Of a stretch of 42,603 nucleotides of DNA, positions 325-20,602 are shown piece by piece. This DNA is from a virus. How positions within the stretch are numbered: the first letter of the stretch is position 1; every line of letters begins with the position of its first letter. Where the stretch lies: positions 1 to 42,603 of the IMG/VR virus record IMGVR_UViG_3300046694_000140; one strand, written 5' to 3'. Under the pieces are notes generated by a model, which was given only the letters and a program-made list of their open reading frames with translations, ran no database searches and had not been told where the DNA came from. The translations under genes and the position numbers were made by a program.

Positions 325-3054
325 CTACTCACCAAGGCTTCTCTTGAGGGTGGACACAGAGACACCCAGTGCTTCAGCCACCTCTGCCTGGTTGTACCCA
401 TTGCGAAGCATGGCCAGAGCCTGAGTCTTCTTGCCTCCACTCATGAGTGTCTTCTCCTTGGGGGTGGCCAGTTCCTTGACCTTGTCCAGATCTGCGTTAG
501 CAAGAATCTGGTTGAGCTTGCTGGTACTGATGGCACCTGCCTGGATAGCAGCCCATTCAGTATCAGTGATCTCAATTCGGGTCTTGTTGGCACCCGTGCG
601 CTGACGTGCTTCTTCAAGCGCCTTAGCCTTCAACTTCTTTTTCTCAGAAGGCTCCATGTCGGGGTTAGCCTGGGTCTTCTGACGGACCACGGCGTTTCCT
701 AGGACATGGGCCTGCCTTTCGAGGGGGGCGTTCCTGAGAGCGAGGGCTAGCTTCGCATCAAGGGAGCGGACCTCATGAGAATAGGCGGCCTTAGCAGAAG
801 GCGAATAGGGGGCTGTCTTGGTGTGGACCAGCTCCAACCTTGCCTGATTGGCAAGGGCCTTCAGCCTGTTCGAGTGATCTGCATAGATCTTCTCGATAGG
901 CGTACCAGAAGAGAGGGTGTGCGCGTTGTCTGCCTCAGCCAGCTTGGTCGACTTGGGCCCGAGCTTGAGTACTTCTCTCTCGGTGACCTTGCCTGACTTG
1001 CTGGTCTTGGTCTGGGTGTAGGTGGCACCCGAGTACTCGTAGACCCTCTTGCCTGTGGTCTTGTCGATCGGTCCGCCCTTGGCAGCAGAGCGGGGCTTCC
1101 TCTCGGGTACGTCCTGCTGTGAACCAGCCCTTGAGATGACGGTGGATGCGCCACCAGTTGAGCGGCCTTGATACTTCTTCATGAGAGCGGCGATGCCGTT
1201 GTCTCGGGCCGACTGCCTGTAGTCGAGGTTGTGCTTCTCACCATCGATCACGACCATGGAATGCCGAACTGCGCGCGCAAGCTCGGTTTCCGTAGCGCCC
1301 TTGAAGGTCATGTCGGTGATGAGGTTCGAAACCAGACCCATCTGGATGCCCTTGGTACGGGCGTCCATTCGCTTGATGGTGCTGTCATCAGGCAGCTTGT
1401 ACTTCATGGGGTCGAAGCCCTTGAGTCCCTCAAGAGGGGACTTGGTCCTGACCTTGCGATCCCGGTTCGGGATGACCAGAACGGTGTCACCATCGAAGTC
1501 TGCACCAGACAGTCGGTCGGCCACCGAGTGGTGGATACCGATTGCGTCGGGCGCATTGCCAAGAAGGCGCTTCGCTTCGGGGTGGTTGTTGTTGACCGTC
1601 AGCTCGGGGATCTCGAAGATGCCACCGTGCGGGTAACGGATCAGAACAACGGGCTCACCGTTCTTGTAGTTCGGTGCGTACACCTCGGTCGGCTTCATGC
1701 TGTTGATCGGCAGTATTACGTGTGACGCCTGCCGAGGAAGAGCCGCAGCCTTGAGGTGAACGGCCGACGAATCCGCGTCATCCGAGAACGCCTCAAGAAG
1801 GCGCTTCTTCACGACGGGGTTGGTCAGCGACATGATCTCGTCGAACTCACGCTTCTTGCGCTCGTAAGTCATGTCGAGCTGTCCGCGAGCGAGGGCAGTA
1901 GGCTGCTTCGACAGCATCTGAGACGAGAGGCTCTTAGACCACTTGCCCCAGCTGCCTTCCTCATTGACGATGTTCATCGCCGAACGGTTCGTACCAGGAA
2001 TCTCACGACCGAACGAATCCAGCTTGGGAAGCTGACGGACGATCGCACCGAACGGGTCGGTCGGGTCATCCTTCATCTTCTTCATGGCGTCGAGCTTGTT
2101 GCCCGTGTTGGACTTGTTCGTGTTGAACACGAGGTCCACACCATTCGGGAGATCATCCCGGTACATCGCCATGCCCTTGAGGTAGTGCGTACCTCCAACG
2201 GCGATTCGGACCTGAGCGTAGTTGGCCTTGCCCAGAGTCAGATCTTCCTTGCCGCGGCGCACGTAGATCACGCCGTCTGCGTCCTTGCCGCCTTCTTCTG
2301 CATAGCGGACCTTGACCCGGCTCGGATGTACCGAGATGGGAGGCTGCTTGGCGAAGTAGGTCTTACCACCATCATCCGAGTGGCTGCCTGGAATGCGGAT
2401 GTTGTCGCGGTTCCGGAAGACTTCGGAGTAAGTAGTGTTCGGCGGGACCAGGACCTTCATCCGGGTCTGGTGGGACGTGCCAAGTTGGTCGACCAAGACG
2501 TACTCGACGCCGTAGCCTTCCTCCTTCAGACGCGCAACGGCGATGCCGAGCTTGTCCTTGGTGACGCCCATGTGCTGTTCTACGCCGGCACCGACATCGA
2601 TGTAGCTGTGCTTGTCCACCTCAGCGCGGAGGACGTTAGCGGTCGACTCAAGGACGTCCGCCTTCCTCGTGGCACCGGGAGCGAGCAGAGTCCTGACAGT
2701 GGACTCGTTGAGGCCCATCTCTTTGGCGATGGCGACGTTGGAGTTGCCCGCATCCTTCAGGCGCTGTGCCTGCTGGACCTGACGAACCTTCTCCTCAGAC
2801 TTGGCAATGGACTTGGCCGCACGGAGCTGAGTCGTCGTGACACCCAGTCCACGGGCGATCTCCGCCTCGCTGAGGCCCTGCTTCTTGAGACCGTCGACCA
2901 TCCCCAGGAAGCCGGCGTTGCTGGCGTATTCGGGGCCGCCAGAACCCCACGGGTAGCGACCGGACTTACGGAGGATTCCGTAGTGAGCAAGCTCGTTCTC
3001 GTCGCCGTCAGCGTAGGCGTCGAGATAGGTTTCCTCGTCTATCGTAAAGGTCAC
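325..3054 (-). CDS. Single-chain RNA polymerase-like protein (YonO-type, DFDGD motif)
   Basis: This 909-residue protein carries ADFDGD (D519, D521, D523), the magnesium-binding signature of the multisubunit RNA polymerase beta' subunit and of single-chain relatives such as YonO of phage SPbeta, which is about the same length. An IRYPHGG segment upstream resembles the RxP region that precedes the catalytic motif in this superfamily. The N-terminus has an HYGILRKSGRYPWGSG motif (from H24), followed by two helix-turn-helix-like segments (about residues 56-81 and 99-124). A third such segment forms the extreme C-terminus. The gene starts 4 nt inside the end of the PD-(D/E)XK gene and follows a phage-type promoter near 3960. 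It could transcribe a class of phage genes. The catalytic assignment rests on the motif and length; the promoter it uses is unknown. Confidence 0.7.
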   Translation of the reverse strand: MTFTIDEETYLDAYADGDENELAHYGILRKSGRYPWGSGGPEYASNAGFLGMVDGLKKQGLSEAEIARGLGVTTTQLRAAKSIAKSEEKVRQVQQAQRLKDAGNSNVAIAKEMGLNESTVRTLLAPGATRKADVLESTANVLRAEVDKHSYIDVGAGVEQHMGVTKDKLGIAVARLKEEGYGVEYVLVDQLGTSHQTRMKVLVPPNTTYSEVFRNRDNIRIPGSHSDDGGKTYFAKQPPISVHPSRVKVRYAEEGGKDADGVIYVRRGKEDLTLGKANYAQVRIAVGGTHYLKGMAMYRDDLPNGVDLVFNTNKSNTGNKLDAMKKMKDDPTDPFGAIVRQLPKLDSFGREIPGTNRSAMNIVNEEGSWGKWSKSLSSQMLSKQPTALARGQLDMTYERKKREFDEIMSLTNPVVKKRLLEAFSDDADSSAVHLKAAALPRQASHVILPINSMKPTEVYAPNYKNGEPVVLIRYPHGGIFEIPELTVNNNHPEAKRLLGNAPDAIGIHHSVADRLSGADFDGDTVLVIPNRDRKVRTKSPLEGLKGFDPMKYKLPDDSTIKRMDARTKGIQMGLVSNLITDMTFKGATETELARAVRHSMVVIDGEKHNLDYRQSARDNGIAALMKKYQGRSTGGASTVISRAGSQQDVPERKPRSAAKGGPIDKTTGKRVYEYSGATYTQTKTSKSGKVTEREVLKLGPKSTKLAEADNAHTLSSGTPIEKIYADHSNRLKALANQARLELVHTKTAPYSPSAKAAYSHEVRSLDAKLALALRNAPLERQAHVLGNAVVRQKTQANPDMEPSEKKKLKAKALEEARQRTGANKTRIEITDTEWAAIQAGAISTSKLNQILANADLDKVKELATPKEKTLMSGGKKTQALAMLRNGYNQAEVAEALGVSVSTLKRSLGE

Positions 3055-3617
3055 TCTTCCTCCGCTCTACGCTTCTCGACGTACGCGTCGAACTCGATGA
3101 TGGTCTTCATGATTGCTCGGATGGCGGCGGGGTCGGCGTCGTACACGCGGATCTCGTCATTCTGGTAGATGCGAAGTTCCGTCTCGATGTCGTACGGGTC
3201 TATCCCGTATTCGAGACAGAAGAACGCCGCATAGTTCTCCAGCTGATGGTACGAGGTCGCGGTGACGCCGGTCTTCAAGTCGTGGATGTTGAGCTTCCGC
3301 TTCCTGAACCCAATGGTGTCCGCGGTTCCGAAACAGTTCCGAGAGACGAAAAGCATCTGCTCGGAGATCATCCCGAGATCGATGGCGTCCCGAACGTAAA
3401 GGCTGAGCGTGTTGTGCTCTTGGTCGGGTCCACCCATGTACTGCTTGAGGCCGATGGCCAGATGTGCGAGAGCGTGGAGGGCTGTGCCCCGTTGGGCCGC
3501 CTGGTGGGTCGTGAACGCCCTGTCGAGCTTGTCCAGAGTCCAGTTGTTCCAATGGTACTTACTGGCGCTCAGAAAGGCGTGCTGGCCCGCCAGATGCGAA
3601 TGCTTGTTCCAGTCCAC
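3051..3617 (-). CDS. RecB/Cas4-like PD-(D/E)XK nuclease
   Basis: The 188-residue protein has RGTALHALAHLA near residue 43 (the motif I helix with a metal-binding His), then GTADTIGF, HDLKTG and QLENYAAFF. This is the order G..H, GxxD, DxKTG, QxxxY that is typical of RecB-family and Cas4-like nucleases and of phage DUF2800-like proteins. It probably degrades or processes DNA during replication or recombination. The GTG start is preceded by GAGGACGTCCTCC, and the gene overlaps the upstream VRR-NUC gene by 59 nt and the downstream polymerase-like gene by 4 nt, so the three are co-transcribed and probably translationally coupled. The catalytic residues look intact. No helicase domain or Fe-S cysteine cluster is visible. 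Confidence 0.75.
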   Translation of the reverse strand: MDWNKHSHLAGQHAFLSASKYHWNNWTLDKLDRAFTTHQAAQRGTALHALAHLAIGLKQYMGGPDQEHNTLSLYVRDAIDLGMISEQMLFVSRNCFGTADTIGFRKRKLNIHDLKTGVTATSYHQLENYAAFFCLEYGIDPYDIETELRIYQNDEIRVYDADPAAIRAIMKTIIEFDAYVEKRRAEEE

Positions 3618-3879
3618 GGAGGACGTCCTCTTCGTTCGAAGGGTAGATGAAGGCCGCGAAGCTCATCTCATTCAGGGTCTCAACCCAGTAGGGCTGATTC
3701 ACCTGGATGGCGGCTGTAGCGCTGGCCTTGACTTCGAGCATCGCCCACTGGTTGCCGTAGAAGATAACGAGGTCCGGTATCCCTTGCAGGTACGTCGGGT
3801 CGTTCTTCAGGATCACGCAACCAGGGAACCGGCGCTCAAGCTCATCTATGAGTTTGGCTTGGTACTGGCTCTCCCGCAT
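3559..3879 (-). CDS. VRR-NUC domain nuclease
   Basis: This 106-residue protein opens with MRESQYQAKLIDELERRFPG, then NDPTYLQGIPDLVIF and AMLEVKAS, the E..Q, G-x-PD, E-x-K pattern of the VRR-NUC branch of the PD-(D/E)XK superfamily. Such small stand-alone proteins are common in phage replication modules and are thought to cut branched DNA. The chosen ATG has a good AGGAGAT site 4 nt upstream; the open frame extends 13 codons further, into the promoter region, without a ribosome site. It is the first gene of the leftmost operon, so the promoter at 3948-3972 should drive it together with the second nuclease, the RNA polymerase-like gene and the 82-residue protein. Confidence 0.8.
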   Translation of the reverse strand: MRESQYQAKLIDELERRFPGCVILKNDPTYLQGIPDLVIFYGNQWAMLEVKASATAAIQVNQPYWVETLNEMSFAAFIYPSNEEDVLRGLEQAFASGGPARLSERQ

Positions 3880-3895
3880 CGGGATCTCCTGTCGC

Positions 3896-3991
3896 GCTGA
3901 AAACAGAAAACACGGCAAACGCAGAGGGGCGCATTCGGCTCCCTTCTATCATAATGCACGATTACTCTGCGTGTCGGTATCTGTTTTTAGC
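3896..3991. repeat. Imperfect inverted repeat around the leftmost promoter
   Basis: The left arm (3896-3927) and right arm (3964-3991) share GCTRAAAACAGA, then ACRC and CGCAGAG in inverted order with small gaps. The dyad encloses the -10 element of the promoter at 3948-3972, and one arm contains its upstream CGCAGAG box. This looks like an operator or a structured leader rather than a chance repeat. The right arm also covers the stop codon of the upstream HNH-like gene. Confidence 0.55.
3948..3972 (-). promoter_or_regulatory. Promoter-like element of the nuclease/RNA polymerase operon
   Basis: Read on the minus strand: ACGCA, 14 nt, TATGAT. The spacing is identical to six other copies in the window, but here the GAGACCCCTAC leader is absent (AGAAGGGAGCC follows instead). 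It lies 69 bases upstream of the VRR-NUC start. It shows that the operon encoding the phage polymerase-like protein is read from the same promoter class as the membrane-protein genes. Confidence 0.6.
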
Positions 3992-13796: not shown

Positions 13797-14483
13797 CTAT
13801 CCCGTCTGACCCAGGACTTCGACAGAGTGCTTCCCAGGGCTCCGAGTGACCTCGAAGTCCATGTTGAAGCGCTCGCACCGGACGTAGATCACGTTCGGCT
13901 CCATGTCCGGGTCGGTGGTGAGGGTCCCGAACCTGTTGAGGTTGTCCGTACCGATGATCTGCTCGACGCGGTCCGGAGTGACGACGTTGTCGTCCTCGTC
14001 GATCACGATGCCGTCGCCGGCGAAGAAGGACACCGTGATCTGATCGGCCTGTGTCTCGTTCGCGTCGAACTCGGCGAACGGGATCATGTACGGCGCGCGT
14101 GCATCCGGGTCCGTGGGAGTCGCCGCGACGTTGCTCTCGATGTCGCTTGCCTTATCCTCGATGGACGGGGCGCCAGGCTTGTTGTACGCCGTCACGGTCT
14201 TGGTGACCTCCTGCGCCAGGACCGCGGGGTTGACGACGGTCTCGCCGCCGGAGTACTCGGTCAGAGCCTCGGCCGTCTGGATGGCCTGCTCCATGAACTC
14301 GGGTTCTTCCGGGCCCGCGTACTCCTCGCCCTGCGTGCCCTCGAAGAACTCCTTGGTCCGCCGGACCTCCTCGTCGAGGAGGCGGGCGTATCGCTTCTCC
14401 AGCTGATTGCGCGCGACGAGGTAGCCGACACCCACGCCGGCCGCCCCGATCAGGACTTCCTTCAACATGTCCAGAACCCCCAT
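13797..14483 (-). CDS. Membrane-anchored conserved phage protein (228 aa)
   Basis: An N-terminal hydrophobic segment (VLIGAAGVGVGYLVARN) is followed by basic helices, a long Glu-rich middle and a C-terminal globular part with APYMIPFAEFDANE, ITVSFFAGDGIVIDEDD and PNVIYVRCERFNMDFEV. This C-terminal pattern recurs, from memory, in a widespread phage family of unknown function. The start overlaps the preceding stop (TGATG). It probably sits in the host membrane with the large domain in the cytoplasm. It is the last gene of the membrane-protein island and leads directly into the replication genes. Confidence 0.65.
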   Translation of the reverse strand: MGVLDMLKEVLIGAAGVGVGYLVARNQLEKRYARLLDEEVRRTKEFFEGTQGEEYAGPEEPEFMEQAIQTAEALTEYSGGETVVNPAVLAQEVTKTVTAYNKPGAPSIEDKASDIESNVAATPTDPDARAPYMIPFAEFDANETQADQITVSFFAGDGIVIDEDDNVVTPDRVEQIIGTDNLNRFGTLTTDPDMEPNVIYVRCERFNMDFEVTRSPGKHSVEVLGQTG

Positions 14484-15385
14484 CAGATCTTGTCGTAGAT
14501 GACGCCGTCGACGTTGAAGTCGATCCAGACGGCCCTCTCGTTGCCCTCGGCGAACAGGTCCCCGCCGACTGGGTCCGGGCCGAAGATGTTGAAGATGACC
14601 GTGTCGTCACCGTCGCCGCCGTCAATCCAACCGGTGACTGCACCAGCCTTGGTGTCCGGCAGGCCGAGCATCCGGTAGACGTCGTTCAGGAAGATGTGGC
14701 CGTCGGCACGGAGCTTGTTGTTCGCCCACGTCTGCTGGGCCGCGAGGAAGGTCTGGTTGTAGCCCCAGTCCTTCTTGAAGTTGCGGTTGGACTCGTCGAA
14801 GCAGACCGCGTACATCGAAGTCGCCTTGCCGCTCGGCGTCTTGATCGTCTTGGTAGTGGGGCCGTTCTCGTCCTCGTGGTAAACCTCCTTGTCCACGAGG
14901 TCGTATCGGTACTCGCGGTCCTTGGCCTCACCCTGGTCAGCGATGACCCTGGCGCGGTACTCCTTGAACGCCCGGTCGACAGCCGCGTAGGCCGCGGTGA
15001 CGCCGGCGAGACGCTTGGTGAGGATCATGTGGGCCCCGGTGAACAGGGCAAGGGAGACGCCACCGACGATCACGGCCGGTGCGTACGCCTTGGTGACCTC
15101 GATCGCCAGCTTGACGCGGGAGAGCTTCCGGTCCTGCGCGGCGTCTTCGGCGCTGTACTTCTCGGAGTGCTCGGTCTCCGCCTTCTCGATCTTGGCGCGG
15201 TCGTTCTCGGCCTCGCGGAGGATGCCGTCCATCTTCAGGGTGGCCTTGCTGGCCAGGACCACGGTGGCGACGAAGCCCGCGGCACCGCCGACGAGCATGA
15301 TGGTGGGAGAGTGCTTCTGCGTCAGCAGAATCTGCCGTCCGACCTTGGAGGTCACGGCATTCGAGATGCCCCTGAGGACGCTCAT
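14483..15385 (-). CDS. DUF6353-like membrane protein, long paralogue (300 aa)
   Basis: The protein opens with HSPTIMLVGGAAGFVATVVL, then a KATLKMDGIL helix, a charged coil rich in Glu/Lys, and a second membrane segment (YAPAVIVGGVSLALFTGAHM). A C-terminal soluble domain follows with YAVCFDESNRNFKKDWG and an acidic VIFNIFGPDP region. The HSPTI..G..G..AT..L..KAT start and two-helix layout match the DUF6353 phage family. A shorter paralogue lies at 17732-18478. ATG 15385 overlaps the stop of the 41-residue gene (ATGA). Function is unknown; topology suggests a cytoplasmic domain held at the membrane. Confidence 0.75.
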   Translation of the reverse strand: MSVLRGISNAVTSKVGRQILLTQKHSPTIMLVGGAAGFVATVVLASKATLKMDGILREAENDRAKIEKAETEHSEKYSAEDAAQDRKLSRVKLAIEVTKAYAPAVIVGGVSLALFTGAHMILTKRLAGVTAAYAAVDRAFKEYRARVIADQGEAKDREYRYDLVDKEVYHEDENGPTTKTIKTPSGKATSMYAVCFDESNRNFKKDWGYNQTFLAAQQTWANNKLRADGHIFLNDVYRMLGLPDTKAGAVTGWIDGGDGDDTVIFNIFGPDPVGGDLFAEGNERAVWIDFNVDGVIYDKI

Positions 15386-16274: not shown

Positions 16275-16526
16275 TTACAGGCGGGGCTTGATGTTCTCGT
16301 TCCACCAGTCGACGGCCTCGTCGATCTTGGCGTCGGTGTATCGTCGAGTCGCGTCAGATGCGGCCATTCCGATGACCACCTCAGCGGAGAAGACGGCAGC
16401 ACGGTTGTGCAGTCGCTCCTCCTCGTCGGTGTTCTTCTCGATGATCATCTTGGCGATCCGGGACGCACCAAAGCCAGCGACGACGCCGACAACGGTCTTA
16501 ACGATGTCGATCTTGGTCTTGGGCAT
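16275..16526 (-). CDS. Small membrane protein (83 aa) with own promoter
   Basis: ATG 16526 (MPKTKIDIVKTVVGVV) is chosen because the longer open frame reads through the promoter/leader at 16540-16575. One membrane or membrane-associated helix (VVGVVAGFGASRIAKMII) is followed by a charged part and a second mildly hydrophobic helix (AAVFSAEVVIGMAAS). The ribosome site is weak (TTGGAA). The gene is a self-contained unit, with a promoter-leader upstream and a terminator hairpin downstream. Family unknown. Confidence 0.65.
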   Translation of the reverse strand: MPKTKIDIVKTVVGVVAGFGASRIAKMIIEKNTDEEERLHNRAAVFSAEVVIGMAASDATRRYTDAKIDEAVDWWNENIKPRL

Positions 16527-16539
16527 GGGGTTCCAATCA

Positions 16540-16575
16540 GTAGGGGTCTCGTTATAGTGCTCGGAAAACCTGCGA
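16540..16575 (-). promoter_or_regulatory. Promoter-leader element, copy A
   Basis: Minus strand: TCGCA, 14 nt, TATAAC, then GAGACCCCTAC. The spacing is the same as in the other copies. It lies 14 bases upstream of the 83-residue membrane protein gene. Confidence 0.65.
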
Positions 16576-16643
16576 CGGGATGCGGGGCACATTTTTCACG
16601 GGGGTACCGGCTGTCGTTTAAGACCAGCATCCGGACTGGGTCG

Positions 16644-16654
16644 GGAGACCCCTA
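16644..16654 (+). repeat. Inverted copy of the GAGACCCCTAC leader motif
   Basis: GAGACCCCTAC occurs here on the plus strand with no TATA-like box upstream. It lies about 90 bases from copy A in opposite orientation, so a minus-strand transcript crossing both could pair the two 11-mers. It may be a decoy, a structure or a remnant. Confidence 0.45.
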
Positions 16655-16696
16655 CAGTGACCAGACCCTGCTGATCCCCCATCCCATCGCAGGGAA

Positions 16697-17218
16697 CTAC
16701 GCTGCCTGCTTGCGCTTGAACGCGATCAGCAGGTGGCGCCGGTCCCAGTTCTTGTCGTCCTTGCCGCCGGCCGAGGCGTAGAAGTCCTCCCACGACACGG
16801 TCAACAGCTCTTCGTCGGTGAACTGCCGGTCGCCCGGAAGTGCGACATCGTCCACCCGGCTCTGCATGTCCGGCGGAACCACCTCACGGAAGAACTTGAT
16901 CGCCGAGTCGGTGTTGGTCGCGAGCTCGATGAACAGCTCGGAGTAGGCGCCGGTCTCGACGAACTCCGCCGTGATCTCAGGGCCCTTGACGAACCGCTGG
17001 CCCTCACGGACGCCGTAGGTCTTGAGGATGAGGTCCTTGAAGAGCTCGATGAGCTCCCCGTGGCTCTCGGCCTCGACGATCCTCCTGGCGTACTCCTCCA
17101 CGCCGCCCTTGCGGCTGAAGTTCATCTCGACGGCCTCGGCCTTGGTGAGGTTGAAGAGGTAGGTCCCGGTGACCTGCTCTCCGTCGAGGTTGTGGTACGT
17201 TATCGTCTTCTCGTGCAC
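16697..17218 (-). CDS. Conserved phage protein (173 aa), possibly chaperone-like
   Basis: The protein begins HEKTITYHNLDGEQVTGTYL and continues FNLTKAEAVEMNFSRKGGV, LIELFKDLILKTYGVREGQR, then AYSELFIELATNTDSAIKFF. This is a recognisable family from phages of Gram-positive bacteria. I have seen similar proteins placed near tail genes and described as tail assembly chaperone-like, but I am not certain. Here it lies amid membrane-protein genes far from the tape measure. It is soluble and helical. The GTG start follows AGGGGAGCACC. The presence of a separate candidate chaperone at 32725-33264 leaves its role open. Confidence 0.6.
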   Translation of the reverse strand: MHEKTITYHNLDGEQVTGTYLFNLTKAEAVEMNFSRKGGVEEYARRIVEAESHGELIELFKDLILKTYGVREGQRFVKGPEITAEFVETGAYSELFIELATNTDSAIKFFREVVPPDMQSRVDDVALPGDRQFTDEELLTVSWEDFYASAGGKDDKNWDRRHLLIAFKRKQAA

Positions 17219-17259
17219 GGTGCTCCCCTTGTGCTAGAGGCGGATGGTTGGGTGGTTGA

Positions 17260-17670
17260 TCAGGCTTCGGTGCTGATCTCGTCCGAGGACTCGACGACCT
17301 CGTCGGCCTCCAGCTCCTGCCGGCCCGCGATGACCTTCAGGACGACACTCGCCGCGAGGAGACCGGCGGACGCCAGTACCAGCTTCTTGTTGCGCTGGAA
17401 CACGCCCTTGACGCCGGTGACCAGCTTCTTGGTCTTGGTCTCGCCCTCGACGATGTCCAGGTCGACCTTGCCGTCCTCGTGGACCTTGATGGTGACGGTG
17501 ACGCCGTCGGCGAGACGGTCCTCGATCTTCTGCAGCGCGTCGATCATGGTGTCGGCCGCAACGGCCTCGTGGACGGCGGCGACGATCTTCTCGCCACCCT
17601 TGTTCTGTGCAGGCACGGTGGTCTCCTCGGTGTTGACGGTCTTGGCGGCGGCGTCGTTCTTGGCGCTCAT
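17260..17670 (-). CDS. Tail-anchored membrane protein (136 aa)
   Basis: A disordered, Ala/Lys-rich N-terminus leads into an amphipathic segment (VAADTMIDALQKIEDRLADG), a beta hairpin (VTVTIKVHEDGKVDLDIVEG), and then a basic stretch before one membrane helix (LVLASAGLLAASVVLKVIAG) and an acidic tail. The cytoplasmic domain would precede the single helix. AGAGGCAACAC precedes the ATG. No family is recognised. It lies 41 nt after the upstream gene's product and 41 nt before the chaperone-like gene, without its own promoter motif. Confidence 0.6.
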   Translation of the reverse strand: MSAKNDAAAKTVNTEETTVPAQNKGGEKIVAAVHEAVAADTMIDALQKIEDRLADGVTVTIKVHEDGKVDLDIVEGETKTKKLVTGVKGVFQRNKKLVLASAGLLAASVVLKVIAGRQELEADEVVESSDEISTEA

Positions 17671-17731
17671 TGGATGTGTTGCCTCTCAGCTCAGGAAGTT
17701 CAGGATTTGATGGATGTTGGGCCGGAGCCCG

Positions 17732-18478
17732 TCAGTGAAACGAGGAGTGTCCCCGGTAGGGAACCGTGCGGAACCGAACGACGCCACAAGGACGATCGTC
17801 GACCGTGCTGGCCCAGTTGAATTCGAGCTCCAACGGGCAGTCCGAGTTCCAGCCGATCATGTCGGATTCGTCGGTGCGGTCCAGACCGACCTGGTCGTAG
17901 AAGTCGGACAGCGTCGCGGCGAACTCATTGTTCAGCTGGTGGTTGATGCTGTTCGCGGCCCGTTCCAGAGCCACCTTGGTGCTGTTGAAGTAGCGGCCAG
18001 ACCAGGAGTCCCGGAAGAGGTCCCCACCGCCGCCCTCGATGAACACGGTCTCCCGACTTATCGGGTGCCGGTCCACCTCGTCCTGAGCGATGGCAGTTCG
18101 GACAGACTCCTCCTTCTTCTTGCCGATGGTCTCGACGACCTTGTCCTTGTACGTCAGAGCGGCCTTCTCGGCGATCGTGTACGCAGTCGCCAGTGCCGCC
18201 ACCCGTCGAGCACCGATCCGGTTCGCAGCCACCATGCAGGCGATCGTCACCACGGCGACCCCTGCAGCGGGCACGAACTCCTTCCAGGTGCGTTCGACCT
18301 TCTCCCTGAGCTCCAGGTTCGGGCTCTCCTCGGAGAGGATCGCCGCGGCCTTGAGCGTCGCCTTGCCGGTGAGATACGCCGTTGCCAGCGTCCCCGTGAC
18401 GCTCAGCGCGGTCAGTATGGTCGGCGAGTTGTCGGCAGCGACCTTGCCAGCTCTCCTGGCCAGTATGCCGAAGTTCAT
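17732..18478 (-). CDS. DUF6353-like membrane protein, short paralogue (248 aa)
   Basis: The N-terminus has DNSPTILTALSVTGTLATAY then TGKATLKAAAIL, paralogous to the start of the 14483-15385 product. A second membrane segment (FVPAAGVAVVTIACMVAANR) and a cytoplasmic domain with RETVFIEGGGGDLFRDSWSG and YFNSTKVALERAAN follow. The match to DUF6353 is better here than in the long paralogue. ATG 18478 has AGGAG 8 nt upstream, and a GAGACCCCTAC leader motif abuts that site without a TATA box. Function unknown. Confidence 0.78.
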   Translation of the reverse strand: MNFGILARRAGKVAADNSPTILTALSVTGTLATAYLTGKATLKAAAILSEESPNLELREKVERTWKEFVPAAGVAVVTIACMVAANRIGARRVAALATAYTIAEKAALTYKDKVVETIGKKKEESVRTAIAQDEVDRHPISRETVFIEGGGGDLFRDSWSGRYFNSTKVALERAANSINHQLNNEFAATLSDFYDQVGLDRTDESDMIGWNSDCPLELEFNWASTVDDRPCGVVRFRTVPYRGHSSFH

Positions 18479-18479
18479 G

Positions 18480-18698
18480 TCAATCTCCTGTAGGGGTCTC
18501 CGCGGGCTGGTCGGGGACGACACGGATGCCAGATTGCTTCTCGTAGTCCCTCATACCATCCCTGTACATGCGCTTGTAGTGCGCTCGGTTCCTCTTGTTG
18601 AGCGCTTGCGCCACAGCTTGGGGGAGCGTTCGACCGATCTCGTAGCCGGCACCCACTGCGATGGCGAGCTTGAGCGCCTTGAGGAAAGTCAAGTTCAC
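18480..18698 (-). CDS. Small membrane protein (72 aa)
   Basis: The GTG at 18698 overlaps the upstream stop (GTGA). The N-terminal half (FLKALKLAIAVGAGYEIGRT) forms a short membrane helix; the remainder is basic and helical (KRNRAHYKRMYRDGMRDYEK). The last codons (ETPTGD) are encoded by the GAGACCCCTACAGGAG segment that also serves as leader and ribosome site for the next gene, so coding and regulatory sequence coincide. No family assigned. Confidence 0.6.
   Translation of the reverse strand: MNLTFLKALKLAIAVGAGYEIGRTLPQAVAQALNKRNRAHYKRMYRDGMRDYEKQSGIRVVPDQPAETPTGD
18490..18500 (-). promoter_or_regulatory. GAGACCCCTAC leader motif without a promoter
   Basis: The 11-mer occurs on the coding strand immediately before AGGAGATTGACATG of the DUF6353-like gene, but no TATRAT or CGCA box lies upstream. 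This suggests that the motif acts at the RNA or translation level and is not only part of the promoter. Confidence 0.5.
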
Positions 18699-18889
18699 TT
18701 CGCGGTCTCCTCGGCCTTCTCCTCGTCCTTGCTGTCGATGACCGTCTCGATGTCCTTGGCGATCTTGCCGGTGACCTTCTTGGTACCGTAGAGCAGGCCG
18801 GCCATGCCGATCCCGATACCCACCGACGTACCGAGACCCGAGGCGGCGAACACCAGGAACGTCTTGCCGAGGTACTGTGCGAACTTCAT
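18695..18889 (-). CDS. Small membrane protein (64 aa)
   Basis: MKFAQYLGKTFLVFAASG continues into TSVGIGIGMAGLLYG, giving one long or two short membrane helices. A charged Lys/Glu tail (DSKDEEKAEETAK) follows. AGAAGGACACACC precedes the ATG. The stop overlaps the next GTG. A terminator-like hairpin (18914-18953) lies 25 nt upstream of its start. No recognised family. Confidence 0.6.
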   Translation of the reverse strand: MKFAQYLGKTFLVFAASGLGTSVGIGIGMAGLLYGTKKVTGKIAKDIETVIDSKDEEKAEETAK

Positions 18890-18913
18890 GGTGTGTCCTT
18901 CTACTAGTGGGGC

Positions 18914-18953
18914 GAAAAAGGAAAACCCTAAGCACCTGGGTAGGGTGCTAGGG
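18914..18953 (-). terminator. Intrinsic terminator
   Basis: Minus strand: CCCTAGCACC, loop, GGTGCTTAGGG with one bulged base, then TTTTCCTTTTT. It ends the transcript of the 77-residue gene. Confidence 0.75.
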
Positions 18954-18981
18954 CTCTGAGTGACCTGGGGAGGTCGGTGAC

Positions 18982-19215
18982 TCAGTCTTCGGTCGTCTCG
19001 GTCTCCTCGTCCTCCGACGTGCCGAACACACGGATGGCGAGCGCGGTGACTGCGGCCGTTGCGAGGATGGCGATCACGGCACGCTTGATGAACTGCTTGC
19101 GGTCAGCAGCGAATCCAGCGTTGGTGGTCTCCTCCGTCGTCTCGGCGTCGGTCTCCGGCGCACCTTCAGCGTTCAGCATGGCGGTGGTGAGGATGGACTT
19201 GACGTTCTTGGACAT
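18982..19215 (-). CDS. Small membrane protein (77 aa) with own promoter
   Basis: Start MSKNVKSILTT at 19215 has GGAGACCC immediately upstream; the open frame extending into the promoter is rejected. One C-terminal membrane helix (AVIAILATAAVTALAIRVFG) is followed by an acidic, Thr-rich tail. The N-terminal half is Thr/Glu-rich and probably cytoplasmic. Promoter copy B lies upstream and a terminator downstream, so it is an independent cistron. No family recognised. Confidence 0.65.
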   Translation of the reverse strand: MSKNVKSILTTAMLNAEGAPETDAETTEETTNAGFAADRKQFIKRAVIAILATAAVTALAIRVFGTSEDEETETTED

Positions 19216-19231
19216 TGGGTCTCCAAACAGG

Positions 19232-19267
19232 GTAGGGGTCTCACTATATAGCATGTAATTTCTGCGA
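19232..19267 (-). promoter_or_regulatory. Promoter-leader element, copy B
   Basis: Minus strand: TCGCA, 14 nt, TATAGT, GAGACCCCTAC. It lies 16 bases upstream of the 77-residue gene. Confidence 0.65.
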
Positions 19268-19280
19268 GGCACGGCAAAGC

Positions 19281-19302
19281 ATAAAACCCTTGTCGGGTTT
19301 TA
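19281..19302 (-). terminator. Intrinsic terminator
   Basis: Minus strand: AAAACCC, GACAA, GGGTTTT. A compact 7-bp hairpin with its U-run in the stem, directly after the 41-residue gene and before promoter copy B. Confidence 0.65.
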
Positions 19303-19315
19303 GAGGCTGTTGAGA

Positions 19316-19441
19316 TCAATTCTTCTTGAATATGCGTATGAACTTGCGGGACTGAGCGCACAGGTAGTCGACGGCGAACATGGCAGCTATGCTGCCCGTG
19401 CACGCGGCGATTATGAATGCGATCATGTTGTCGTCAGACAT
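19316..19441 (-). CDS. Very small membrane protein (41 aa)
   Basis: Start MSDDNMIAFII is chosen by GAAAGG 9 nt upstream. The longer open frame reads through promoter copy C. One membrane helix (MIAFIIAACTGSIAAMFAVD) is followed by a basic tail (SRKFIRIFKKN), so the C-terminus should be cytoplasmic. It has its own promoter and terminator, which is unusual investment for a peptide this small and supports its being a real gene. Confidence 0.6.
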   Translation of the reverse strand: MSDDNMIAFIIAACTGSIAAMFAVDYLCAQSRKFIRIFKKN

Positions 19442-19455
19442 GGCATGGCCTTTCA

Positions 19456-19491
19456 GTAAGGGTCTCATCATAGGCCATGTATTTTGTGCGA
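19456..19491 (-). promoter_or_regulatory. Promoter-leader element, copy C
   Basis: Minus strand: TCGCA, 14 nt, TATGAT, GAGACCCTTAC (one base different from the consensus leader). It lies 15 bases upstream of the 41-residue gene. Confidence 0.6.
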
Positions 19492-19524
19492 GGTTTGTCC
19501 AAATTCCTCCCCCGGGGTTTTTCA

Positions 19525-19554
19525 CCAAAACAAAACCCAAACCCCTTTCGGGGT
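19525..19554 (-). terminator. Intrinsic terminator
   Basis: Minus strand: ACCCC, GAAA, GGGGT, then TTGGGTTTTGTTTTG. A GNRA-type loop on a short G-C stem with a T-rich tail, after the 79-residue gene. Confidence 0.7.
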
Positions 19555-19575
19555 GTGCGGGTTCAAATATAGACG

Positions 19576-19815
19576 TTACTCAGACTCGTCGTTCTTGGAC
19601 AGGTTGTCGACCAGGCGGGTGAACGCAGTGGAAACAGCGTAGGTGATGATCACCGCGCCGACGGCCTTAGCGGTGTGGGTCACGAAGTCCTTGGCGATAT
19701 CTGCATATCGCTCGGGCTCCACGTGACTGCACTTCTCGGGCGCGTCGACGGGGGTGTCATTCTTGGGCGTTTTGACTACGGACACCTGGAGGGCACGATT
19801 CCGGCGGTTGAACAC
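19576..19815 (-). CDS. Small membrane protein (79 aa)
   Basis: A GTG start at 19815 follows GAAAGGACCCCGCC. The N-terminal half is polar and includes a Cys (EKCSHVEPERYADIAKD); the C-terminal half has one membrane helix (AVGAVIITYAVSTAFTRLV) and a charged end. The open frame upstream of the GTG covers promoter copy D and is not coding. No family is recognised. Confidence 0.6.
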   Translation of the reverse strand: MFNRRNRALQVSVVKTPKNDTPVDAPEKCSHVEPERYADIAKDFVTHTAKAVGAVIITYAVSTAFTRLVDNLSKNDESE

Positions 19816-19829
19816 GGCGGGGTCCTTTC

Positions 19830-19865
19830 GTAGGGGTCTCATCATAAAGCCGGTAAAACGTGCGA
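19830..19865 (-). promoter_or_regulatory. Promoter-leader element, copy D
   Basis: Minus strand: TCGCA, 14 nt, TATGAT, GAGACCCCTAC. It lies 15 bases upstream of the 79-residue gene. Confidence 0.65.
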
Positions 19866-19892
19866 AAAGCATGAACCCTTGTTAGGGGTTCA
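19863..19892 (-). terminator. Intrinsic terminator
   Basis: Minus strand: GAACCCC, TAACA, AGGGTTC, then ATGCTTTT. It ends the 64-residue gene and touches the upstream box of promoter copy D. Confidence 0.65.
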
Positions 19893-19904
19893 GAGGCTTT
19901 GAGG

Positions 19905-20099
19905 TTATTCCTCGTCGAGCATCATGTCAGTGAATGCCTCAAGGGCCACCAGGTAGTCATCCGCGTCCTGTATGGCGCCGACGAAGAAGCGGGGGAGCAT
20001 GAAGTTCTGGAAGCGAACGTACGTCTCCGCCGATTCCTCGTCGAAGATACGGACGGGGAAGAGCAGCAGGGTGACCATGTTCAGATATGCAGTGAACAC
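19905..20099 (-). CDS. Small hypothetical protein (64 aa)
   Basis: A GTG at 20099 follows GAAAGGCACCAC, the same ribosome-site design as the neighbouring units. The first 20 residues (FTAYLNMVTLLLFPVRIF) are hydrophobic enough for membrane association; the rest is acidic and aromatic (FQNFMLPRFFVGAIQDADD). It has promoter copy E upstream and a terminator downstream. No family recognised. Confidence 0.55.
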   Translation of the reverse strand: MFTAYLNMVTLLLFPVRIFDEESAETYVRFQNFMLPRFFVGAIQDADDYLVALEAFTDMMLDEE

Positions 20100-20115
20100 G
20101 TGGTGCCTTTCGAGA

Positions 20116-20151
20116 GTAGGGGTCTCATTATAAGGCCCGAAAACTCTGCGA
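20116..20151 (-). promoter_or_regulatory. Promoter-leader element, copy E
   Basis: Minus strand: TCGCA, 14 nt, TATAAT, GAGACCCCTAC. This copy has the perfect -10 hexamer. It lies 16 bases upstream of the 64-residue gene. Confidence 0.7.
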
Positions 20152-20169
20152 GAGCAAAAACGAAAGGCA

Positions 20170-20218
20170 CAGAAAAACACAAACACCGCGCAAGAGTTTG
20201 GGTTCTCTTACGCGGTGT
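20170..20218 (-). terminator. Strong intrinsic terminator
   Basis: Minus strand: ACACCGCG with an inner AGAG/CTCT pair, closing with CGCGGTGT, then TTGTGTTTTTC. It is the most stable hairpin of the set, after the 99-residue gene. Confidence 0.8.
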
Positions 20219-20252
20219 CTGCGTTGGTTTCCTTGGGTGGGAAGTGGCCTTG

Positions 20253-20552
20253 TTACCGGGCGAGCTTCGTGACGAAGCCCAGCGCCTTGGTAGCGATGAC
20301 GTGTCCGGACTTCTCGAACAGGAGGATGGCCACGATCCCGGAGAGGCTTCCAGCCAGGTTGGCCAGCGTGTCAGGGCTCACGCGCTTCTTCGACTTGGAT
20401 TCGTCGTTGAGCTTGTAGAGCTTGACCAGCTGGTCAGCCGTCTTGGAGTACTCTTCGGATTCGGGGTCCATCCCCTGCAGCGAGTCGAACAGACGCGTGA
20501 TCGCGTCGTCCAGCGGGGTGGGCTCGATGGTTGAAGCCTTGAGGGTGATCAA
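20253..20552 (-). CDS. Small membrane protein (99 aa), TTG start
   Basis: The TTG at 20552 lies 8 nt after AAAGG and just after the leader of promoter copy F. The product has a soluble helical N-terminus (DDAITRLFDSLQGMD) and one C-terminal hydrophobic segment (LAGSLSGIVAILLFEKSGHV). It is transcribed away from the holin gene and has its own terminator. No family recognised. The TTG start is supported only by the ribosome site and spacing. Confidence 0.6.
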   Translation of the reverse strand: MITLKASTIEPTPLDDAITRLFDSLQGMDPESEEYSKTADQLVKLYKLNDESKSKKRVSPDTLANLAGSLSGIVAILLFEKSGHVIATKALGFVTKLAR

Positions 20553-20566
20553 GGGACAATCCTTTC

Positions 20567-20602
20567 GTAGGGGTCTCATTACAGGCCAAGAATATCCTGC
20601 GA
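20567..20602 (-). promoter_or_regulatory. Promoter-leader element, copy F
   Basis: Minus strand: TCGCA, 14 nt, TGTAAT, GAGACCCCTAC. It follows the holin gene stop by about 10 bases and starts the array of single-gene units. Confidence 0.6.

Follow-up and report, generated by a model that had tools for sequence, protein, structure and literature searches.

A fixed-register promoter-like element and its candidate reader, a single-chain two-barrel RNA polymerase, in a Streptomyces siphophage and its relatives

Introduction

Which enzyme reads a set of seven promoter-like sites is the question raised by a viral genome in the IMG/VR database, record IMGVR_UViG_3300046694_000140, of which positions 1 to 42,603 were analysed (42,603 nucleotides (nt), hereafter the window). 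It represents the near-complete genome of a siphophage of Streptomyces that is closely related to RavenPuff and Scap1 (genus Scapunavirus), with 84% identity across 97% of the 6.4 kb queried, and its minus strand carries all annotated genes. Six of the sites lie between lysis and replication genes at 16540-20602, and the seventh precedes a nuclease operon whose last gene encodes a 909-amino-acid (aa) protein at 325-3054. From sequence comparison across phages, the sites are probably promoters of this protein, a single-chain two-barrel RNA polymerase (RNAP) that the phage itself encodes. A concrete promoter gives the family of this polymerase, phrog_4291, a function and a substrate, together with dozens of natural promoter variants across one polymerase family that are ready for testing. 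If the reading is true, promoter finding without sigma by a single-chain relative of cellular RNAP would inform the evolution of promoter recognition, and the pair would serve for orthogonal gene expression in Streptomyces and further actinobacteria. No report of the motif turned up in a text search of the open literature or in papers on cluster BI phages and on phages of Gordonia, Microbacterium and Rhodococcus.

The element and its sites in the window

The preliminary description of this DNA, made from the sequence alone, had claimed seven sites with a CGCA box, exactly 14 nt and a TATRAT-like hexamer, and the claim is borne out. The strict pattern WCGCA-N14-TATRAT has four matches in the window, all on the minus strand (3948, 19467, 19841 and 20127), against 0.01 expected from shuffled sequence, and none of 100 shuffles gave four. 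The other three sites each depart by one hexamer base (TGTAAT at 20578, TATAGT at 19243 and TATAAC at 16551). Directly 3' of the hexamer, GAGACCCYTAC is present in six of the seven sites, again as described, and is replaced by AGAAGGG at 3948. With a weight matrix whose training set contained neither the window nor the two relatives nearest to it, the six sites score 28-48 bits, and the best of six shuffled-window scans reached -1.3.

All six are on the minus strand. Promoter 1 (T-CGCA-N14-TGTAAT-GAGACCCCTAC) lies at 20567-20602, scores 28.6 bits and has a predicted start at 20577. Promoter 2 (T-CGCA-N14-TATAAT-GAGACCCCTAC; 20116-20151, 40.4 bits, predicted start 20126) lies 5' of a 64-aa open reading frame (ORF) at 19905-20099, and promoter 3 (T-CGCA-N14-TATGAT-GAGACCCCTAC; 19830-19865, 37.1 bits, predicted start 19840) directly adjoins a terminator-like hairpin at 19892-19872. 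Promoter 4 (T-CGCA-N14-TATGAT-GAGACCCTTAC; 19456-19491, 48.1 bits, predicted start 19466) is 5' of an ORF at 19316-19441, promoter 5 (T-CGCA-N14-TATAGT-GAGACCCCTAC; 19232-19267, 47.1 bits, predicted start 19242) is 5' of an ORF at 18982-19215, and promoter 6 (T-CGCA-N14-TATAAC-GAGACCCCTAC; 16540-16575, 28.3 bits, predicted start 16550) is 5' of an ORF at 16275-16526.

Comparison with relatives shows a full fixed-register element of about 36 bp, TCGCR-N5-(T)ACA-N5-TATARTGAGACCCCTAC, which can also be written CGCR-N5-(T)ACA-N5-TATARTGAGACC; the consensus pooled from the window and its relatives is T-CGCA-N-R-W-W-W-T-ACA-N-G-S-C-Y-TATARTGAGACCC(C)TAC. The spacers had been described as otherwise different, which did not hold: relatives share a conserved A/T tract that follows CGCA and a conserved (T)ACA located 5 nt 5' of the hexamer. 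Position by position, the spacer (T)ACA and the GAGA after the hexamer show roughly the same degree of conservation as the CGCA and hexamer boxes. The spacing is rigid, as a pattern with ACA shifted by one base gave no matches in 49 records that had been picked for carrying the motif.

Site 7 (A-CGCA-N14-TATGAT-AGAAGGGAGCC; 3937-3972, minus strand) is a member of a second class of site, which in relatives likewise lies 5' of the operon for VRR-Nuc, Cas4 and the polymerase. The similar sites of relatives stand ahead of the polymerase operon at about 0.9 of genome length, and several of them carry AGAAGGGATAGAAT or GATAGGAATAGAAT. The second-class site of five Arthrobacter phages has TTG(C/T/A)NCA in front, which could perhaps let host RNAP start the polymerase gene.

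The polymerase encoded by the window

The proposed reader of the sites, encoded on the minus strand at 325-3054, matches phrog_4291 along its whole length and contains the DxDGD metal-binding motif as DFDGD at residues 519-523, which is invariant among 24 aligned sequences. A Foldseek search with an AlphaFold model of the protein matched QDE-1 (2j7n, E 5.6e-9) and the P74-26 gp62 non-virion RNAP (8f5m, E 2.3e-7), with further matches to plant RDR2 and, in BFVD, to P23-45 gp64. Because of the phrog_4291 match, the DFDGD motif and the fold matches to QDE-1, P74-26 gp62 and RDR2, the protein is assigned by its predicted fold to the two-barrel single-chain RNAPs of the QDE-1/P23-45-gp64 class. Helix-turn-helix (HTH) regions are located near residues 84-124 and 876-907, with residues conserved in 24 of 24 aligned homologues, and a sequence search of the protein against solved structures returned only HTH-type and spurious matches. 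A second polymerase in the genome was considered and rejected, as DxDGD is present in one protein only, and none of the profiled window proteins was recognised as a T7-like RNAP.

A tblastn search found the polymerase in 250 sequenced phage records, and the hosts of phages that bear it include Streptomyces, Arthrobacter, Gordonia, Rhodococcus, Curtobacterium, Microbacterium, Lactococcus and Faecalibacterium. Its homologues are usually annotated merely as 'helix-turn-helix protein' or 'RNA-dependent RNA polymerase'. In the phage genomes that were pulled, the gene order is nuclease gene, polymerase and small gene, mostly at the right end of the genome. The homologue in Lactococcus phage 1706, orf75, is annotated 'structural protein', a label whose source was not found and which is unconfirmed.

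Distribution of the element and the polymerase across phages

All 20 actinobacteriophages whose genomes were pulled possess 5-14 high-scoring sites each, exclusively on the gene strand. With leave-one-out weight matrices, these sites mostly score 20-56 bits, compared with shuffled maxima of at most 13.5, and the comparison of gene-strand sites with a reversed-pattern control in 23 polymerase-bearing phages likewise speaks for the polymerase as reader. The CGCA box and its spacing, whose loss in relatives the preliminary description had put forward as grounds for refutation, proved to be conserved when relatives were scanned with the motif model. Outside these phages, Lactococcus phages 1706 and P078 carry 12 and 6 sites on the gene strand and none on the other, in the same register; here CGCA is changed to CACA or TTTA, and TTTTACA-N4-C-TATARTRRA is found in register. 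Faecalibacterium phage FP_oengus has 11 gene-strand sites, and a blind search for spaced word pairs in its genome ranked the element first (CGCGAAAAATACA...CTTTATGGA), its CGCG and ACA again standing in that register.

The association between element and polymerase is found in both search directions. When IMG/VR was scanned with the pattern CGCAN5TACAN5TATARTGA and contigs of at least 40 kb were counted, phrog_4291 was encoded by 32 of the 33 motif-bearing contigs. Contig G050, with 17 sites and no polymerase, was considered as a counter-example and set aside, as it is cut off about 4 kb beyond the helicase and does not reach the syntenic Cas4-RNAP locus. Conversely, the pattern was present in all 14 contigs chosen solely by the polymerase, on one strand in each. 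The Streptomyces phages phiC31 and R4, which lack the polymerase, gave no sites with two mismatches allowed. Among the genomes and contigs compared, the motif therefore occurs with the RNAP and is absent without it, as is expected of promoters specific to a phage RNAP. Promoter variation also correlates with polymerase divergence once host distance and GC content are removed (partial r 0.39, permutation p 0.001). The phage polymerase, which the preliminary description had named as a candidate reader, has become the best-supported one, given that the motif tracks it in both directions and across hosts of two phyla.

Transcript starts and small structured RNAs

At some sites, what follows is not a gene but a small structured RNA closed by a T-run, and in these RNAs the 5' end of the closing helix is the first base after the hexamer. 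The structured RNAs of Shepard and Stayer take the form GAGAAGG...CCTTCTC-TTTTT, and the corresponding helices are GAAAGGTAAGG...CCTTGCCTTTC in Gordon, GAGAACCCAC...GTGGGTTTTC in ReqiPoco6 and AGAGAA...TTCTCT in Lactococcus phage 1706. When the 5' ends of helices that close on a T-run were counted over 226 sites, the maximum (10) fell at +1, and counts at -1 to -3 largely reflect base pairs formed between hexamer A's and the T-run. Because the RNA folds begin there, they suggest that transcripts start at or very near the base directly after TATAAT, which is closer than sigma-70 permits and also closer than the 6-9 nt after TATRAT that the preliminary description had expected.

In relatives, sites are clustered 5' of such RNAs, which are about 60-110 nt long with T-run ends. 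These clusters are located at genome positions 31504, 31598 and 31746 in Gordon, 28350 and 28451 in Stayer, 38785 and 38900 in Conley, 32916 and 39268 in Untouchable, and 31051 and 35710 in Lactococcus phage 1706. Several of the RNAs possess loops that resemble the T-arm of tRNA (GGTTCGAATCC and GGTTCGATCCC), and Rfam gave no convincing family for the structured RNAs, the Gordon cluster included, or for the window region.

Genes behind the sites and a proposed mechanism

A ribosome-binding site and start codon lie at most 90 nt downstream of 136 of 178 sites (control 26%), with a median distance of 26 nt and a usual distance of 20-40 nt from site to start codon. The ORFs behind the sites are short (median 79 aa), those in the window encode small and mostly hydrophobic proteins, and terminator-like hairpins, such as that adjoining promoter 3, are frequent just 5' of a promoter. 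Other sites are 5' of non-coding units, namely a gene for tRNA-Ala and hairpin RNAs that end in a T-run.

In the mechanism proposed, recognition of the element by the polymerase would be direct, its two conserved HTH regions perhaps contacting the CGCA and ACA boxes, and the enzyme would melt TATAAT and initiate RNA on the purine that immediately follows the hexamer (GAGACC...). Sites placed directly after a terminator-like hairpin would yield short units, each for one small and often membrane-associated protein, and the second-class site before the VRR-Nuc/Cas4/polymerase operon would provide feedback from the enzyme to the gene that encodes it.

Alternative explanations

The polymerase is favoured as the reader because GAGACC is conserved, transcripts appear to start right after the hexamer, the element persists across phyla and the enzyme has HTH regions of its own. 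Several observations weigh against it. The host's own -10 box is likewise TATAAT, the structural genes have no strong site of this element in front of them, the sites of RosaAsantewaa have weaker weight-matrix scores, and the polymerase-chosen contig G087 has a single site with one mismatch. The AlphaFold model is of moderate confidence (predicted template modelling score 0.59). In addition, about 20 further genes are common to all members of the lineage, and so co-inheritance alone does not single out the polymerase.

These shared genes leave room for host RNAP with its main sigma factor on TATAAT as a -10 box, with a lineage-conserved phage activator bound to CGCA/ACA in place of a -35 contact, after the model of MotA at T4 middle promoters. 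The hexamer is identical to the bacterial -10, the upstream box sits at a fixed distance where a -35 would be, and the uncharacterised proteins phrog_4079, phrog_4303 and phrog_2152 are kept in all or nearly all members. However, GAGACC after the hexamer is among the most conserved bases and is not needed by activator/-10 promoters, the RNA folds start too near the hexamer for sigma-70, and the register is the same in phages of Actinomycetota and Firmicutes. The uncharacterised conserved proteins that were tested gave no DNA-binding family matches, whereas the polymerase has HTH regions, and an activator of this kind is unlikely. Ordinary sigma-70/HrdB promoters were rejected, as the window contains no strict TTGAC-N17-20 sites; two stretches were scanned for sigma-70-like sites, and counts in 1-22700 do not exceed those in shuffled sequence. 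Site 7 overlaps a 9/12 sigma-70-like match. The upstream box differs from TTGACA, which is why a special host sigma factor had been raised in the preliminary description, and actinobacteria possess many alternative sigma factors, but one element in one register in phages of eight host genera, from Streptomyces to Lactococcus and Faecalibacterium, and its absence from phiC31 and R4 make such a reader exceedingly improbable.

The repeats could instead be operators, leader motifs linked to translation (akin to start-associated sequences) or processing sites, dispersed along with small gene cassettes. Their closeness to start codons fits this idea, as do two exact copies of GAGACCCCTAC that lack CGCA/TATRAT in front: one at 18490-18500 on the minus strand, possibly a decayed or moved promoter, and one at 16645-16655 on the plus strand, inverted relative to promoter 6. 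Sites that front the tRNA-Ala gene and the T-run hairpin RNAs argue against it, and the TATAAT core, fixed upstream box and strict strand bias are promoter-like, leaving a non-promoter role highly improbable. A further proposal keeps the polymerase as reader but has it packaged in the virion and injected, so that the sites would be early promoters fired at once for small host-takeover genes without host RNAP. It draws on the 'structural protein' label of the Lactococcus phage 1706 homologue, the position of the promoters in front of small membrane-type genes between the lysis and replication modules, the lack of a strict sigma-70 consensus site in the window, and a polymerase gene at the genome end that would adjoin structural genes once circularised; this use of the enzyme is conceivable but rather doubtful.

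Comparison with known systems

The nearest precedent for a phage polymerase with promoters of its own is Thermus phage P23-45, which encodes two two-barrel RNAPs, the non-virion gp64 and the virion gp96 (PMC10770324). Each has a promoter motif identified by ONT-cappable-seq and ChIP-seq, the motifs being AT-rich and GC-rich, and relatives that encode the enzyme carry the motif while those that lack it do not (PMC10770324). Both systems pair a single-chain two-barrel phage RNAP with a conserved motif, here proposed to be its own, that tracks the enzyme in relatives, and P74-26 gp62 and P23-45 gp64 are among the top fold matches of the window polymerase. The two differ in RNAP family and hosts, and in having two RNAPs there and one here; the window motif has a longer fixed register, and the window enzyme has additional HTH regions near its two ends.

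YonO of Bacillus phage SPbeta is a single-chain RNAP whose promoter was left undefined by its authors in 2017 (PMC5467207). Like the window enzyme, it is a single-chain phage RNAP of the DxDGD type, and the earlier label 'YonO-like' stands for the two-barrel fold class. It does not stand for the sequence family, since YonO belongs to phrog_8308, which has no significant profile match to phrog_4291 (hhalign probability 4%, a 20-column match only). YonO serves one promoter for a late operon, whereas the window phage has many single-gene promoters. Upstream of yonK in SPBc2 (L221), TTTGAAATTACATACCCTCGTAAAATAAG at 60153-60125 on the minus strand resembles the Lactococcus promoter variant; it is presumably near the expected YonO start, although the coordinate conversion, which depends on an assumed prophage boundary, is unverified. 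Also upstream of yonK, some 92 bp (L221, about 2903-2994) are shared at about 78% with Bacillus phages that are otherwise unrelated, SIOphi and 000TH008 among them, and perhaps encode a non-coding RNA.

Promoters of T7-type single-subunit RNAPs are compact and sigma-free, and their RNA begins on the purine immediately behind a TATA-like core; the T7 enzyme is unrelated to the window polymerase, and the window element is longer. T4 middle promoters have an upstream box at a fixed distance from TATAAT and are read by host RNAP with MotA and AsiA; in contrast, no MotA-like protein was found here, and the window element is conserved downstream of the hexamer.

Neighbouring genes

The first gene downstream of site 7 encodes a VRR-Nuc type endonuclease (3559-3900, minus strand), and it is followed by a Cas4/RecB-type exonuclease gene (3051-3617, minus strand), which is the first neighbour of the RNAP gene in nearly all relatives. 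The family phrog_2152, whose function is unassigned, has two paralogues in the window, at 14483-15385 and 17732-18475, the first of which also corresponds to DUF6353.

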